40,998 bases of DNA from an uncultured Clostridia bacterium (GTDB lineage Bacteria; Bacillota; Clostridia; TANB77; CAG-508): NCBI GenBank assembly GCA_944391855.1, contig CALXVB010000013.1:1-40998 (forward strand), given 5' to 3'. Both the position numbers and the translations under genes were made by a program. The notes under the pieces are model-generated. The model did not search any database. It saw nothing but the letters and a program-made list of their open reading frames with translations, and had not been told where the DNA came from. Shown here one piece after another: positions 7,505-13,381 of this stretch (positions are counted from its first letter, which is position 1; every line of letters begins with the position of its first letter).

Positions 7505-8137
7505 CTATTCATATAATAATATAATTCTATTTCCAATTTTATCTACCATTTTATCTTCTTTTAAGAGTTTTAACTCTCTCATCATAGCACTTCTGTCAAC
7601 ACTTAAATAATCTGCTAAATCGGTTAAAGATAATGGAAGTTCAAATGTTTTAGATAGTTTTCTTGTGGATATGAGAGAAAAGTACATAAGTAATTTATCA
7701 CGAGTAGTTCTTTGAGTTAAAAGTTCTATTCTAGTATTTAACTCTGTAATTTTATCAAGAATTAGTTCAGGTAGATGCTCAGCTAAAGTGTTATGAAATT
7801 CGCATCCATGAGTACATGGTTCTTTCAATTGATCATAAATGTAGAAAAGAACTGTACATTTAGATTTTGCTTCTACTAGTAATTCGTTATTTGTAGTTAC
7901 TTTATAAAATACCTCACCAAATAATGCATTTTTAGAAAAATGTTCAACTATAGTTCTATTACCATTTAAATCATATCTAACTAAATCGGCATTTCCTTTT
8001 AATAAAATACATAGCTGATTACGTTTTTGTATATATGTAGTAATTATCTGACCCTTGGAGAAGGTCTTTTTTTGTGCTTTATTACAATTACAAGAAAAAT
8101 TATAATAAAAGTTTTCAATATTAAAATTGCTATTCAT
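7505..8137 (-). CDS. Crp/Fnr family transcriptional regulator
   Basis: 210 residues with an N-terminal cyclic-nucleotide-binding-like beta-barrel (about 20-115: FSKGQIITTYIQ, LCILLKGNADLVRYDLNG, NALFGEVF), a dimerisation helix (about 118-145) and a C-terminal winged helix-turn-helix (about 165-200: LTDLADYLSVDRSAMMREL). Six Cys fall in the sensor half (16, 18, 43, 94, 108, 112), enough to imagine an Fe-S or redox sensor, though their spacing is not that of E. coli FNR. GAGGAG lies upstream of the ATG. It is divergent from the first NrdD-like gene, and its promoter overlaps the conserved block upstream of that gene. Control of the anaerobic RNR genes is therefore a reasonable inference. Confidence 0.85.
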   Translation of the reverse strand: MNSNFNIENFYYNFSCNCNKAQKKTFSKGQIITTYIQKRNQLCILLKGNADLVRYDLNGNRTIVEHFSKNALFGEVFYKVTTNNELLVEAKSKCTVLFYIYDQLKEPCTHGCEFHNTLAEHLPELILDKITELNTRIELLTQRTTRDKLLMYFSLISTRKLSKTFELPLSLTDLADYLSVDRSAMMRELKLLKEDKMVDKIGNRIILLYE

Positions 8138-8171
8138 AATCTAAAGTCACTCCTCATATCTACATAAAATT

Positions 8172-8200
8172 ATTATAAAGGAAACAAGCTTCAAAATCAA
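8172..8200 (-). promoter_or_regulatory. promoter of the Crp/Fnr gene
   Basis: On the minus strand TTGATT (8195-8200) and TATAAT (8172-8177) are separated by exactly 17 bp, upstream of the regulator. The -35 side overlaps the conserved GGAAACAAG block that faces the nrdD-like gene. Confidence 0.65.
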
Positions 8201-8338
8201 TAAAATAAAGGAAAATTTGTAAATAAAAATAAATCATTTAAAAATATTCATAGAAAACATACAGTCTCTAGCCTTTAAAAAATAGGTTGCATAATATGTA
8301 GCTTATGCAACAGAAAAAAATCAGAAAAAATATATAAT
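8180..8338 (+). promoter_or_regulatory. conserved three-block upstream region, copy A, with -10 box
   Basis: Three blocks recur upstream of the second nrdD: GGAAACAAG (8180-8188), ACAGTCTCTAG (8261-8271) and a 27-nt block (8290-8316) that starts CATAATATGT and ends TGCAACAGAAA. A TATAAT follows 16 bases later (8333-8338). The third block includes the right half of an exact dyad GTTGCATAA-N8-TTATGCAAC (8286-8311). No good -35 is present, which suits activator control. It could bind NrdR (the CATAATATGT core is loosely like an NrdR box) or the adjacent Crp/Fnr protein, or be part of a leader RNA. Confidence 0.6.
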
Positions 8339-8379
8339 AAAATACATTAGATAAAAAATCTAGTAAAGAAGGTAGATAT

Positions 8380-10299
8380 ATGAAAGTAATTAAAAGAGAT
8401 GGTAGAGCAGTAGATTACGACAGAACAAAGATTCAAACAGCAATAGAAAAAGCAAACCAAGAAGTAGCGCTAGCAAATAGAGCTTCGGCAGAAGACATAA
8501 AGGGAATAATTACATACATAGAAGAACTTAACAAAAAAAGGATTTTAGTAGAAGACATTCAAGACATAATAGAAGAAAAACTAATGGAACTAAAAAAGTA
8601 CGAACTGGCAAAGAAATATATTGTATATAGATATACAAGGGCTTTAGTTAGAAAACAAAACACTACAGATGAAACAATTTTAGGCATAATTAGAAATGAT
8701 AGTAATAATGAATATTTTGAAAAAAATAATATGACAGCTGCTATGCAAAGAAATTACATATCAGCAGAGGTATCAAGAGATTTAACAAAAAGACTTTTAC
8801 TACCAGAAAAAATTGCAAAAGCAGATGAAGATGGCATTCTTTACTTCCATAATGCAGATTATTTTGTGCATCCAATGATAGGGAATAGCTACATAAATAT
8901 AGGAGACATGTTAGATAATGGAACAGTTATAAATGGTAAAATGATAGAATCGCCAAAAAGCTTTTTAGTAGCATGTATAGTAGCAACACAAATTATTGCA
9001 GGATTGTCTGGAAATCAATATGGTGGTCAAACTATCGATATGTCTCATTTTGGCAAATATTTAAGAAAAAGCTATAAAAAATTTAGACTTCAAATAGAAA
9101 AAGAATATAAAGGAAAAATGTCAGAAGAATATATTGAAGATTTAATCAGCAAAAGGGTAAAGTCAGAATTAGAATCTGGAATACAAATGATACAGTATCA
9201 AATAAATGTATTAGAAACCATAAATGGTAAAAAACCAGTTGTTACACTATTTTTACATATAAAAGAAAATGATGAATATATAAAAGAAAATATAATGGTT
9301 ATAGAAGAAGTACTAAAGCAAAGATATCAGGGAATAAAAGATGAAGAAGGAAGAGAAATTACTCCAGAATTTCCAAGACTCGTGTATGTATTAGATGAAA
9401 ATAATTCTTTGCAAGGCGGAAAATATGACTATTTAACCAAACTTGCAATTAAATGCTCACTAAAAAGAGGATATCCTAGATACATATCTGCTAAAAAAAT
9501 GAGAGAGAACTACAAAGGAAATGTATTTGGCCCTATAGGAGAGACAGATTTTCTAACACCATTAAAAAATGAAAATGGCGAATATATTTTTGAAGGGAGA
9601 TTTAGTCAAGGAATTGTAAGCATTAATTTACCTCAAATAGCTATTATAGCAGATGGAGATGAAAATAAATTTTGGAAAATGCTAGACGAAAGGTTAGAAT
9701 TATGCTTTGAAGCTCTGATGTGTAGGCATTATGCATTAGTGGGAATACGCTCTAATATAAGCCCTTTGCACTGGGAACATGGGGCATTATCTAGAATGAA
9801 AAAAGAAGAAAGAATAGATAAAATGCTATTAAACAATTATTCGATAATAACATTAGGATATATGGGAATATACGAGACTACAAAACTTATAAAAGGTATG
9901 TCACAAGCAGAAAAAGAAGGAAGAGAATTTGCATTAAAAACAATAAAACACTTAAAAAATACTGTAGAAAAGTGGAAAAAAGAAACAAACATAGCATTTG
10001 TACTAAGTGCGGTAAATTCTAAAGAAGTATTAACTAGATTTTTAAGTATAGACAGAGAAAAATATGGAATTATAAAAGACGTAACAGATAAAACATGTTA
10101 TACAGGTGCATATTATCTATCACAAAATGAAGAATTAGAAACTTATGAAAGATTATCAATGGAAAGTGAGTTTCAAAATAATTCTTTAGGAGGTGCAATT
10201 TCATATATAAAGGTAGACGAAAATATAGAAGAGGAAGAACTAAAAAAGCTTATGGAATACATATATGAAAATGTTCAATATGTTAAATTAATAAAATAG
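8380..10299 (+). CDS. NrdD-like protein lacking catalytic cysteines and glycyl-radical domain (probable pseudoenzyme)
   Basis: 639 residues. An N-terminal ATP-cone (1-95, starting MKVIKRDGRAVDYDR) is followed by a class III ribonucleotide reductase barrel that aligns well with Firmicutes NrdD: DMLDNGTVI, SQYGGQT-like NQYGGQTI, ISAKKMRE, FSQGIVSINLP, GGAISYI. The active-site residues are gone. GNSYINIGDML (168-178) stands where family members have a Cys before the DMLQNGT stretch, and GPIGETDF (384-391) replaces PCMGCRSF, so Glu388 sits in the thiyl-radical Cys position. The protein stops at YVKLIK, just before the usual zinc CxxC pairs and RxxGY glycyl loop. The DNA beyond the stop does not encode them in any frame. 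The frame is long and intact, so this is not ordinary decay; an allosteric or regulatory role is inferred. Confidence 0.85.
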   Translation: MKVIKRDGRAVDYDRTKIQTAIEKANQEVALANRASAEDIKGIITYIEELNKKRILVEDIQDIIEEKLMELKKYELAKKYIVYRYTRALVRKQNTTDETILGIIRNDSNNEYFEKNNMTAAMQRNYISAEVSRDLTKRLLLPEKIAKADEDGILYFHNADYFVHPMIGNSYINIGDMLDNGTVINGKMIESPKSFLVACIVATQIIAGLSGNQYGGQTIDMSHFGKYLRKSYKKFRLQIEKEYKGKMSEEYIEDLISKRVKSELESGIQMIQYQINVLETINGKKPVVTLFLHIKENDEYIKENIMVIEEVLKQRYQGIKDEEGREITPEFPRLVYVLDENNSLQGGKYDYLTKLAIKCSLKRGYPRYISAKKMRENYKGNVFGPIGETDFLTPLKNENGEYIFEGRFSQGIVSINLPQIAIIADGDENKFWKMLDERLELCFEALMCRHYALVGIRSNISPLHWEHGALSRMKKEERIDKMLLNNYSIITLGYMGIYETTKLIKGMSQAEKEGREFALKTIKHLKNTVEKWKKETNIAFVLSAVNSKEVLTRFLSIDREKYGIIKDVTDKTCYTGAYYLSQNEELETYERLSMESEFQNNSLGGAISYIKVDENIEEEELKKLMEYIYENVQYVKLIK

Positions 10300-10335
10300 T
10301 TACCAAATAAATAAATTACATAAAATAAAAATATG

Positions 10336-10506
10336 GGAAACAAGACTCAAAAGCCCTATAAAATAAGAAAAAAATTGTAACATAAATGTAATATTTAAAA
10401 TCGTTTTAATATAAGATAACAGTCTCTAGTGCAAAATAAGTCGAAAAAATAAAAAAACATAATATGTGGCATTTGCAACAGAAATTGAACAAAAAAGAGA
10501 TATAAT
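10336..10506 (+). promoter_or_regulatory. conserved three-block upstream region, copy B, with -10 box
   Basis: Second copy of the region before the NrdD-like gene: GGAAACAAG (10336-10344), ACAGTCTCTAG (10419-10429) and a 27-nt block (10458-10484) matching copy A at 24 of 27 positions. TATAAT again follows after 16 bases (10501-10506). The distance from block 1 to block 2 is 83 bp (81 in copy A). Block 2 to block 3 is 39 bp (29 in copy A), a difference of ten bases, one helical turn. Shared control of both genes, or common descent of gene plus promoter, follows. Confidence 0.6.
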
Positions 10507-10572
10507 ATAGTCAAATTTAAATAAAGGGGACAGGGAAAACCTAATATACACCTTTAGGAAAGGAAGAAGAAT

Positions 10573-12873
10573 ATGCAAGTAATAAAAAGAGATGGAAGAG
10601 TAGTAGAATTTAATCCAGAGAGAATAGTAAAAGCAGTAACGCTAGCTATGTCACAAACACCAGGAGGTGTAGATATTGATTTAGCAAATAAAATAGCTGC
10701 AAGTGTTCAAAAACAATTTGAGGATAAAAATCAAGCATCTGTATATGAAATTCAAGATGCAGTAGAAAAGAAATTAATGGCATCTTCAAGAAAGGAAGTT
10801 GCTCAAAGCTATATTACATATAGATATAATAGAGACGTAGCAAGAAAATCAAAAACAAAAGAAGTATTTTTAGACATAATTGGTGCAAAAGCAAATGATA
10901 TAACAAGAGAAAATGCTAACATGAATGCAGATACACCTGCAGGAATGATGATGAAATTTGCATCAGAAACAACAAAACCATTTGTTGATGATTTCTTATT
11001 ATCAACAGAAGCAAGAGAAGCTTTTAAAGGTGGATATATACATATACATGATAAAGATTATTACCCAACAAAATCATTAACATGTCTACAACACCCATTA
11101 GACAAAATACTAAGAGAAGGATTTAAAGCAGGACATGGTGCTTCAAGACCAGCAAAAAGAATAGAAACAGCAAGTATATTAGGTTGTATATCAATGGAAA
11201 CTGTACAAAATGAAATGCATGGTGGACAAGCAATACCAGCATTTGACTACTACTTAGCACCTTATGTAAGAATGACATATAAAGAAGAGATAAATAAAAT
11301 TGCGGAATTTGTAGAAAAAGACTTATCACACCTTTTAGATATAGAAATAGAAGATTATCTAAAAAAACCAGTAAAAGGTTTAGAAGGAGATAAAAAATAC
11401 GTACAAGAAGCTATAAACAATACTGTTGGCAGAGTACACCAATCAATGGAAGCATTTATCCATAATATGAATACAATTCATTCAAGAGGAGGAAACCAAG
11501 TTGTATTTAGTTCAATAAATTATGGAACAGATACTTCAGCAGAGGGAAGATGCATAATAAGAGAAGTGCTACTTTCAACAGAAAGAGGAGTAGGTAATAA
11601 TGAAACACCAATATTCCCAATTCAAATCTGGAAAAAGAAGAGAGGCGTAAATTATCTACCAGAAGATAAAAATTACGATTTATATAAATTAGCTTGCAGA
11701 GTTACAGCAAAAAGATTCTTCCCAAATTTCATAAACCTAGATGCTACATTCAATCAACATGAAAAATGGAATGCAAATGACCCAGAAAGATATAAATACG
11801 AATGTGCAACAATGGGATGCAGAACAAGAGTATTTGAAAATAGACATGGAGAAAAAACTTCAGTAGGAAGAGGAAACCTTTCATTTACAACAATAAATTT
11901 ACCAAGACTTGCAATAGAATCTGCTTTAGAAGCACAAGAACAATTAGGACTAAAATTCGACTTAGGTAGAGGATCTGAAGAACACATGACAGCAGCTTTT
12001 AAAAAAGCAGTAAAGAAAATATTTATGCAAAAACTAGATAAGTATGCAGGAGTTGCAGCAAGACAATTATATGACAGATATAGATTCCAATGTACAGCGA
12101 TAGCTAAACAATTCCCACTTCTAATGTCTGGACTATGGGAAGATAGTGAAAACTTAAAACCATTTGATAGCGTAGAACCAGTATTAAAACATGGAACATT
12201 AGGAATAGGATTTATAGGCTTAGCAGAATGTTTAACAGTACTTACAGGAAAGCATCATGGAGAATCAGAAGAATCACAAAAATTAGGCCTAGAAATAATT
12301 GGAGAATTAAAAGAATTAGTATCAGGATTTTCTGATAGATATGATTTAAACTACTCTGTATTAGCAACACCAGCAGAAGGACTATCAGGAAGATTTACAA
12401 AAATAGATAGAAGAGAATATGGAATAATACTAGGTGTAACAGATAGAGAATATTATACAAATAGTAACCATGTACCAGTTTGGTATAAGTGCACAGCAGA
12501 TCAAAAGGCAAAAATAGAAGCACCATATCATGACTTAACAAGAGGAGGTCATATTTTCTATATAGAATTAGATGGGGATGCTACACATAATCCAGAAACA
12601 ATAGAAGCTGTTGTAGATTTAATGGATAAATATAACATGGGATATGGAAGTGTAAACCATACAAGATCAAGATGCATGCACTGTGGATTTGAAAATGCAG
12701 ATCCAAACTTAAAAGTTTGTCCACAATGTGGAAGCGAAGAAATAGACACAATTCAAAGAATTACAGGATATTTAGTAGGAACAACTTCACGTTGGAATAA
12801 TGCAAAGCTTGCAGAATTAAAAGATAGAGTAACACATACAGGACTTGGCTCTGATGAAATAAAGGGGGCATAA
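10573..12873 (+). CDS. nrdD: anaerobic (class III) ribonucleoside-triphosphate reductase
   Basis: 766 residues: ATP-cone (1-95), catalytic barrel, zinc site and glycyl-radical loop. Catalytic residues are present: Cys171 in TCLQHPL, Cys416 in CATMGCRT (thiyl radical position), zinc ligands CMHC (701-704) and CPQC (716-719), and the radical glycine G732 in RITGYLVG. The enzyme reduces ribonucleoside triphosphates to dNTPs without oxygen, using a glycyl radical made by NrdG. Start: AGGAAAGGAAG before the ATG. nrdG follows after 4 bp, so the two are co-transcribed. It is only distantly similar to the preceding NrdD-like protein outside the ATP-cone and belongs to a different NrdD subtype, so the pair is not a recent tandem duplication of the whole coding region. 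Confidence 0.95.
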   Translation: MQVIKRDGRVVEFNPERIVKAVTLAMSQTPGGVDIDLANKIAASVQKQFEDKNQASVYEIQDAVEKKLMASSRKEVAQSYITYRYNRDVARKSKTKEVFLDIIGAKANDITRENANMNADTPAGMMMKFASETTKPFVDDFLLSTEAREAFKGGYIHIHDKDYYPTKSLTCLQHPLDKILREGFKAGHGASRPAKRIETASILGCISMETVQNEMHGGQAIPAFDYYLAPYVRMTYKEEINKIAEFVEKDLSHLLDIEIEDYLKKPVKGLEGDKKYVQEAINNTVGRVHQSMEAFIHNMNTIHSRGGNQVVFSSINYGTDTSAEGRCIIREVLLSTERGVGNNETPIFPIQIWKKKRGVNYLPEDKNYDLYKLACRVTAKRFFPNFINLDATFNQHEKWNANDPERYKYECATMGCRTRVFENRHGEKTSVGRGNLSFTTINLPRLAIESALEAQEQLGLKFDLGRGSEEHMTAAFKKAVKKIFMQKLDKYAGVAARQLYDRYRFQCTAIAKQFPLLMSGLWEDSENLKPFDSVEPVLKHGTLGIGFIGLAECLTVLTGKHHGESEESQKLGLEIIGELKELVSGFSDRYDLNYSVLATPAEGLSGRFTKIDRREYGIILGVTDREYYTNSNHVPVWYKCTADQKAKIEAPYHDLTRGGHIFYIELDGDATHNPETIEAVVDLMDKYNMGYGSVNHTRSRCMHCGFENADPNLKVCPQCGSEEIDTIQRITGYLVGTTSRWNNAKLAELKDRVTHTGLGSDEIKGA

Positions 12874-12877
12874 AACT

Positions 12878-13381
12878 ATGAATATGGCAGGATTTTATGA
12901 TGAAAGTATATCAAATGGAGTTGGTTGGAGAGCAGTATTATTTGTAAGTGGTTGTCCACACCATTGTCCAGGATGCCATAATGCTGTAGCACAGGACTAT
13001 AATTATGGACAAAAATTTGACAAACAGGCTATAATAGATAGAATATGTGATAATTCAATATTAAAAGGAATTACAATTAGTGGTGGAGAACCATTATGCA
13101 AAGAGAATATTCCAGAAGTATTAGACTTTATAAAAGAAGTAAAAAAAGTAAGACCAAACTTTAATGTATGGTGTTATACAGGATATACATTAGAACAATT
13201 AGAAGAAAGAAAAGATGAAATAACAGATGAAACTTTGAAGAACATAGATGTTTTAGTAGATGGAAGATTTGTAGAAGAAAAGAAAAATCCAACATTAAAA
13301 TTCAAAGGCTCAGAAAACCAAAGAATATTAGACGTACAAGAATGTTTAAAAGAGCATAAAATAGTACAAATGGCTTTATAG
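12878..13381 (+). CDS. nrdG: anaerobic ribonucleotide reductase activating enzyme (radical SAM)
   Basis: 167 residues, the normal length. The radical SAM cluster motif is CPHHCPGC (Cys26, Cys30, Cys33), followed by the SAM-binding ISGGEPL (about 67-73). NrdG uses a [4Fe-4S] cluster and S-adenosylmethionine to abstract hydrogen from the glycine of NrdD. It begins 4 bp after the nrdD stop, with AAAGGGGG inside the end of nrdD as its ribosome binding site. A second Met at 12884 is an alternative start. A strong terminator follows. Confidence 0.95.
   Translation: MNMAGFYDESISNGVGWRAVLFVSGCPHHCPGCHNAVAQDYNYGQKFDKQAIIDRICDNSILKGITISGGEPLCKENIPEVLDFIKEVKKVRPNFNVWCYTGYTLEQLEERKDEITDETLKNIDVLVDGRFVEEKKNPTLKFKGSENQRILDVQECLKEHKIVQMAL

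Follow-up and report, generated by a model that had tools for sequence, protein, structure and literature searches.

The window analysed here, a stretch of 40,998 nucleotides from an uncultured Clostridia bacterium, encodes a homologue of the class III ribonucleotide reductase (RNR) NrdD that is truncated at its C terminus, has lost its catalytic residues and is well supported as a pseudoenzyme under selection. We posit that this dead protein is kept for sensing (d)ATP and would tune class III RNR, a reading to which we give a probability of about 0.46 and whose partner and direction of control we infer from sequence. A regulatory mechanism of this kind is plausible, and the repeated, independent appearance of dead copies under selection points to an unrecognised regulator. 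The features of the locus are collected in Table 1.

Table 1. Positions of the dead nrdD gene, its neighbours and their upstream elements in the window
Feature	Position	Strand	Basis or detail
Crp/Fnr-family regulator, divergent	7505..8137	-	Pfam; relatives beside many examined nrdD loci
Promoter/leader of the dead gene	8161..8339	+	69% identical over 198 alignment columns to 10317-10507, E 6e-17
Operator-like imperfect dyad GTAGC-N4-GCAAC upstream of the dead gene	8298..8311	+	-10 box TATAAT at 8333-8338
Ribosome binding site AAGAAGG	8366..8372	+	7 nt upstream of the ATG of dead nrdD
Dead, C-terminally truncated NrdD, Streptococcus/T4/E. coli type	8380..10299	+	639 aa; ORF calls, Pfam, NCBIfam, alignment, fold search
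ATP-cone of dead NrdD, residues 1-87	8380..8640	+	Pfam; most conserved domain across the dead clade
Codon 169, Asn at the catalytic Cys1 position	8884..8886	+	Alignment with 708-aa sister NrdDs (Cys1 is the first Cys of NCCLINI)
Codon 388, Glu at the thiyl-radical Cys position	9541..9543	+	Alignment; PMGCRSF of sisters is PIGETDF in dead NrdD
Stop codon of dead nrdD	10297..10299	+	Sisters continue into the zinc CxxC and glycyl-radical domain
Second promoter/leader copy, before active nrdD	10317..10507	+	Same alignment as 8161-8339
Operator-like GTGGC-N4-GCAAC upstream of active nrdD	10466..10479	+	TATAAT at 10501-10506
Active-type NrdD, P. copri type	10573..12873	+	766 aa; cone, both Cys, zinc site, RITGYLVG loop; NF005497 987 bits
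NrdG activase	12878..13381	+	167 aa; TIGR02491 172 bits, above cut-off

The dead gene starts with ATG and runs uninterrupted to its stop codon, and its product is a member of the NrdD superfamily by sequence (Pfam), by fold search and by its place in the tree. The Pfam NRDD domain (PF13597) spans residues 117–636 (E 1.7e-108, 364 bits against a cut-off of 26.2), covering profile positions 6–503 of 562, and the ATP-cone (PF03477; E 1.1e-19, 71 bits against a cut-off of 25.8) retains its a-site residues. By domain and a-site residues the protein belongs with the ATP-cone proteins, and it is predicted to bind ATP or dATP. The NCBIfam equivalog cut-offs for NrdD are missed (NF006732, 571.6 bits against 657; TIGR02487, 282.5 against 326.35). 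Among solved structures the dead protein is closest to Streptococcus thermophilus NrdD (9d3x, E 8.2e-88) and phage T4 NrdD. The same proteins ranked first, with a TM-score of 0.77 to 9d3x, in a fold search that used its AlphaFold2 model (pLDDT 78 on average and under 50 at residues 85–87, 89–125 and 159–168).

An earlier note made from the sequence had described a protein that keeps the ATP-cone and nearly all of the RNR barrel, lacks the first catalytic Cys, carries Glu388 at the thiyl-radical position and ends just before the zinc CxxC pairs and glycyl-radical loop, in an unbroken frame of 639 codons behind a good ribosome binding site. All of this is borne out by the domain matches, the ribosome binding site and the alignment to sister NrdDs, which places Asn169 at the Cys1 position and the substitution of Cys by Glu within PIGETDF, in the finger loop where the enzyme carries its thiyl-radical Cys (MGCR or MCCR). 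We take these two positions, from the alignment, to be those of Cys79 and Cys290 of T4 NrdD. The protein terminates four residues into the stretch that in the 708-residue sisters leads to the zinc CxxC pairs and glycyl-radical loop, and both elements, present in the full-length sisters, are absent. Also missing is the substrate flap, an Asn-X-Asn element that the accessible text of PMC11226230 and PMC12662201 describes in the NrdDs of P. copri and S. thermophilus; Tyr and Glu occupy its two Asn positions in the window protein. By its lack of the glycyl loop and zinc CxxC, the thiyl Cys, Cys1 and the flap, dead NrdD is not a class III RNR enzyme. Loss of the C terminus through assembly error, an alternative raised in the earlier note, is unlikely because separately assembled relatives end in the same way.

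Purifying selection acted on the gene after the catalytic residues had been lost. The window gene and those of genomes G017 and G016 share all lesions and differ with a dN/dS of 0.10; the window–G017 pair has 71 nonsynonymous and 131 synonymous changes (0.102), and in the dead clade the four closest pairs, each of which diverged after the lesions, give 0.10, 0.10, 0.10 and 0.084 (the last for G034–G039). Values across all 45 pairs range from 0.084 to 0.325, and those of the active neighbours from 0.03 to 0.12 in eight of the same ten genomes (in G034 and G039 the active gene is split over contig ends); all are simple Nei–Gojobori estimates, in which dS above about 1 is saturated. In a neutral simulation at dS 0.46, a simple model with AT-rich replacement bases set by hand, a mean of 35 stops accumulated with a minimum of 20 in 500 runs, against none observed in the window lineage. 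The earlier view of a gene under selection thus stands. Ten pairs from other dead lineages fall between 0.07 and 0.20. Among the species that share the lesions, dead genes diverge at as many as 37% of residues, and most of the frames are open with low dN/dS.

These values bear directly on whether the gene is a slowly decaying relic, an old nrdD left without function by the takeover of a P. copri-type enzyme and not yet broken. Such a history would accord with the full-length, presumably active orthologue found at the same locus in sisters, with the faster evolution of the dead protein (73% identity to its counterpart in G010, against 94% for the active protein) and with gene loss in a few lineages: the gene of G011 is frame-broken and lacks the promoter pattern described below, G008 retains a remnant of about 120 residues, and the dead genes of G003 and G038 are shorter. 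Sister homologues with the Cys and glycyl domain, which the earlier note would have read as a sign of recent decay, do therefore exist, but recent decay is contradicted by shared lesions, open frames and low dN/dS. Simple decay in the window lineage is ruled out by a dN/dS of about 0.10 after the lesions together with the absence of stops, and a further clade of dead genes (the L020 type, 16 rows from six genera) has open frames of 657–744 codons and dN/dS of 0.12–0.16 in the six pairs tested. For the window lineage the relic reading is largely refuted, and we regard it as a very improbable account of the gene.

Conservation within the dead proteins is centred on the cone. Positions invariant in full-length NrdDs (at least 95% of 54 proteins of four subtypes; 14 columns in the cone) were scored in 41 dead proteins, a set from which frame-broken or shorter genes (G011, G038, G201, G063 with 523 aa, and G008), the very diverged G042 and contig-edge pieces were excluded. 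The invariant residues are kept in 571 of 574 cells of the cone, 56 of 164 of the connector and flap and 1842 of 2706 of the barrel, with the glycyl domain absent. The a-site Lys, Arg, Asp and Gln persist in all 41 save for one Lys to Arg change; the thiyl Cys is retained in four (G069, G075, G099 and G105) and the first catalytic Cys in 12. Within the window clade conservation is highest in the cone, with a mean identity of 0.868 against 0.668 for the barrel (eight rows), the reverse of the full-length sisters, where it is the least conserved (0.834 against 0.893; 40 of the 79 full-length rows). Median dN/dS across window-clade pairs is correspondingly 0.055 for the cone (33 pairs) and 0.224 for the barrel (45 pairs). 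This contrast rests on the deeper comparisons, since in the three closest pairs cone dN (0.064, 0.027 and 0.054) is not lower than barrel dN (0.042, 0.056 and 0.051), and the cone dN/dS of 0.038–0.057 in these pairs is owing to higher cone dS. The specificity-site Gln (Gln204 in the window protein) is kept in all 23 dead rows of the Streptococcus/T4 subtype; the accompanying Glu is replaced by Gln in 22 of these rows, as it is in the full-length proteins of that subtype.

The suggestion in the earlier note of an allosteric regulator or dNTP sensor fits a cone that is best conserved over the clade; the rest of that suggestion we infer. A role for the dead protein as the source of a cone lacking in the active enzyme was rejected, since the active NrdD retains its own intact cone and none is missing. 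The constraint on the barrel (dN/dS 0.094–0.117 in the closest pairs, and the share of invariant barrel cells kept) is also what a neofunctionalised enzyme running a non-radical reaction on nucleotides might display; however, the flap, HD motif, NGQxP and finger-loop Arg are lost or variable both within and between dead lineages, and we consider such an enzyme improbable.

The earlier note had treated the dead gene as a paralogue of the adjacent nrdD. The two proteins are about 25% identical and belong to different subtypes, the closest solved relative of the neighbour being Prevotella copri NrdD (1179 bits), so the pair does not stem from a recent duplication, which the tree also rules out. 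In the four sister loci laid out, a divergent fnr-like gene accompanies a full-length NrdD of the dead gene's subtype and an NrdG 44–49% identical to that of the window, whereas the order in the window clade is fnr-like, dead NrdD, P. copri-type NrdD and its NrdG. By this comparison the dead gene is no copy of its neighbour; it is the resident Streptococcus/T4-type NrdD, most likely displaced at the fnr–nrdD locus. Among 30 genomes of the genus, the dead form occupies the fnr locus in 12 (G011, and 11 whose frame stays open over at least 600 codons) and the full-length form of the resident NrdD is present in nine. One sister NrdD (L099) has both Cys intact and a frame of 653 codons ending within the zinc domain, which may represent a recent truncation or a sequencing error.

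The dead and active genes of the window share a promoter and leader and, within it, an operator-like site. A pattern of TGCAAC with a TATAAT-like box 17–25 nt further on, written after inspection of the promoter sequences and missing both dead2 promoters and five of seven other promoters, lies upstream of 11 of 12 dead genes, all 12 adjacent active genes and all seven full-length sister genes, with at most 0.025 expected per set in shuffled sequences. The sole miss among the dead genes is the frame-broken G011. This half-site pattern was adopted because a strict dyad matched 15 of 40 promoters (0.095 in shuffles). The full GTTGC-N4-GCAAC dyad occurs in both dead2 promoters and in five of the seven full-length sister promoters, and in these sisters its spacing to the -10 box would suit activation by a Crp/Fnr-type protein; the divergent Crp/Fnr-family protein presumably reads the operator. 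In G040 and G041 the P. copri-type gene is located elsewhere and lacks the operator/-10 pattern, so the newcomer of the window clade probably acquired the promoter of the resident. The dead and active genes of G015 and G024 seem to form one operon behind a full dyad. Both leaders of the window share further blocks such as GGAAACAAG and ACAGTCTCTAG; an Rfam search of the shared leader returned no match at E 1, and a riboswitch or other known RNA was accordingly set aside.

At least 26 of 191 genomes in the order carry a truncated NrdD of at least 600 codons whose end falls at profile positions 493–512 of 562; this is a hand count and a lower bound because the genomes opened were those with more than one NRDD match and some of those with a single match. 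The T4 and L020 subtypes account for all 26; dead genes of the P. copri type (G015, G024, G063 and G186) were recognised by sequence, outside this census, and the dead NrdDs among the rows examined come from three subtypes (S. thermophilus/T4, P. copri and L020). Homologues in related genomes without the same residues, proposed earlier as a check, were found: the ten dead rows of the genus carry Asn (3/10) or Ser (7/10) at the Cys1 position, and keep the first flap Asn in one case and the second in two. The dead rows of the L020 type form one clade (support 98, with the very long G042 row included). A tree of the quick kind, computed without the trait columns and without bootstraps and with 18 rows left out (fragments, other subtypes and near copies), requires seven changes for the truncated state, at least four of them forced by well supported branches, which suggests that dead NrdD arose independently several times, with at least four origins over the rows examined.

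The arrangement can be reciprocal, in that the window clade pairs a T4-type dead gene with a P. copri-type active one, while G015, G024 and G063 have a dead gene of the P. copri type and an active relative of the T4 type, both beside an fnr-like gene. The f5 genomes G093, G108 and G118 have the order fnr-like, active, nrdG, dead, and in seven others (G044, G072, G075, G099, G105, G140 and G146) the truncated T4-type gene stands beside the fnr-like gene alone, with no nrdG in the fetched stretch. Fetched stretches of the L020-type dead clade contain no fnr, nrdG or active nrdD of the tested kinds except in G042, and a conserved neighbourhood for this clade was discounted as the neighbours vary by genus. 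In a class-wide sample of 393 genomes, all frames are at least 707 codons long among the matches listed outside the order that span query residues 3–633, and dead T4-type genes were therefore seen only in this order among these matches.

A different division of NrdD was observed in family f5, genus g8 (L212, L213, L225 and L226, in G082, G093, G096 and G110), where a split class III RNR keeps both Cys and the zinc site and ends just before the glycyl-radical loop, the loop being carried by a second protein of about 100 aa whose gene lies close by. Profile ends at 533–549 of 562 indicate a split NrdD in 17 genomes, each of which has a small glycyl-loop frame on that contig as well; sequence checks covered the NrdD end in four and the small protein in two. 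A split NrdD, the only NrdD found in G082, G058, G094 and G106, would be a two-chain glycyl-radical RNR. In L020 (G029) and L021 (G025) a small glycyl-loop protein adjoins an NrdD with its own loop, resembling a spare part in the manner of GrcA/YfiD for pyruvate formate-lyase, and this arrangement is perhaps a stage preceding the split. Another glycyl-loop protein of 110 aa (L142, G014:C125) lies on a stretch of 45% G+C, against 27% on another contig of the genome, and is probably contamination. Given that stand-alone glycyl-loop proteins occur in the order, activity in trans with such a subunit, as the split NrdD of f5 seems to have, was considered for the window protein; it is excluded by the missing cysteines, and the window genome (85% complete) has only two NRDD matches and no separate glycyl piece, leaving this reading barely conceivable.

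RNR is the only de novo route to DNA precursors. A class I or II RNR scored above cut-off in one of 57 genomes (G005), so class III is nearly always the sole RNR detected; three of the 57 (G001, G002 and G013) had no NRDD match. NrdR was above cut-off in none of the 57, with or without the dead gene, and in 9 of 14 controls, so the usual transcriptional dNTP sensor is missing. In G103 and G201 only a truncated NrdD was found, with no RNR of any class and no NrdG above cut-off; in G099 an NrdG at the contig edge suggests that the active gene is simply absent from the assembly. Neither class III nor class I/II RNR was detected in G199, G153, G130, G062, G138, G089 and G178 (96–100% complete), which reflects either assembly gaps or RNR-less bacteria, and no RNR was above cut-off in G001, G002, G012 and G013 of the window's genus (63–91% complete).

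The absence of NrdR could be taken to mean that the dead protein replaces it, as a dNTP-sensing regulator that makes no contact with the active NrdD and acts on transcription or on another partner. An L020-type clade that keeps the cone mostly without nrd genes in the fetched stretches, and a dead gene in G103 without a detected RNR, are in keeping with this possibility. However, Pfam shows no DNA-binding domain above cut-off, NrdR is absent from sister genomes without the dead gene as well, and the dead genes of the other two subtypes are often within nrd loci. We consider a regulator of this kind unlikely.

In the reading that we prefer, a pseudoenzyme kept for (d)ATP sensing, a P. copri-type nrdD–nrdG cassette would have taken over catalysis at the fnr–nrdD locus. 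The resident nrdD would have lost its nrdG and its chemistry and retained a promoter whose operator-like site matches that of the new enzyme; the ATP-cone and folded core would have been kept, and the flap, both catalytic Cys and the glycyl-radical domain lost. A protein with cone, core and specificity site and without flap or radical site would be a pure sensor, its cone presumably binding ATP or dATP, and as a dimer or in a mixed oligomer it may tune the output of class III RNR by the (d)ATP level. Dead cones might pair with those of the active enzyme or, alternatively, build a competing (d)ATP-dependent oligomer. Against this explanation, a cone that chemistry can do without should survive longer than the active site whatever the non-catalytic role, the active NrdD has an intact cone of its own, sister genomes without the dead gene lack NrdR too, and a few lineages are losing the gene. 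In addition, a heterodimer is not assured for proteins only about 25% identical, the L020-type clade is mostly unlinked, and in G103 and G201 only the truncated gene was found.

A broader proposal, which we put forward tentatively and hold to be somewhat doubtful, is that gut Clostridia of this order repeatedly made displaced class III RNRs into stand-alone (d)ATP-sensing regulatory subunits that would join or control an active NrdD of another subtype and supply NrdR-like dNTP feedback. A recurrent dead NrdD whose catalytic parts erode around a kept cone offers a natural experiment in which allosteric sensing can be told apart from chemistry, and it is a candidate, open to testing, for how RNR is controlled where NrdR is missing.

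Pseudo-subunits of RNR, which lack catalytic residues but serve another role, retained or acquired, include yeast Rnr4 and the herpesvirus R1 homologues; these differ from the present case in being eukaryotic or viral and of class I. To our knowledge no class III or bacterial RNR pseudo-subunit is known. The accessible parts of the open-licence literature, including three family-wide RNR studies, contain no description of dead class III NrdDs that we could find. Among solved structures, S. thermophilus NrdD (9d3x, 9dau and 9dca) is the best sequence and fold match, and the ATP-cone residues Lys19, Arg20 and Gln79 and specificity-site Gln225 given for it in the accessible text of PMC12662201 align with Lys5, Arg6, Gln61 and Gln204 of dead NrdD; unlike dead NrdD, it has the Asn-X-Asn flap, the two catalytic Cys and a zinc/glycyl domain. 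P. copri NrdD (8p23 and relatives) has the same fold and only 17–21% identity to the dead protein in fold alignments. According to the accessible text on the NrdB of Leeuwenhoekiella blandensis (eLife 2018, PMC5794259), that protein carries an ATP-cone and so resembles the window protein in placing cone-based (d)ATP control on a non-catalytic subunit, although the cone there sits on the radical-generating subunit of a class I enzyme and here on a dead homologue of the class III catalytic subunit. NrdR, a repressor composed of a zinc ribbon and an ATP-cone, is likewise a non-catalytic cone protein tied to RNR control, from which dead NrdD differs in having neither a zinc ribbon nor a DNA-binding domain above the Pfam cut-off and in scoring 14 bits against the TIGR00244 (NrdR) cut-off of 124.65.
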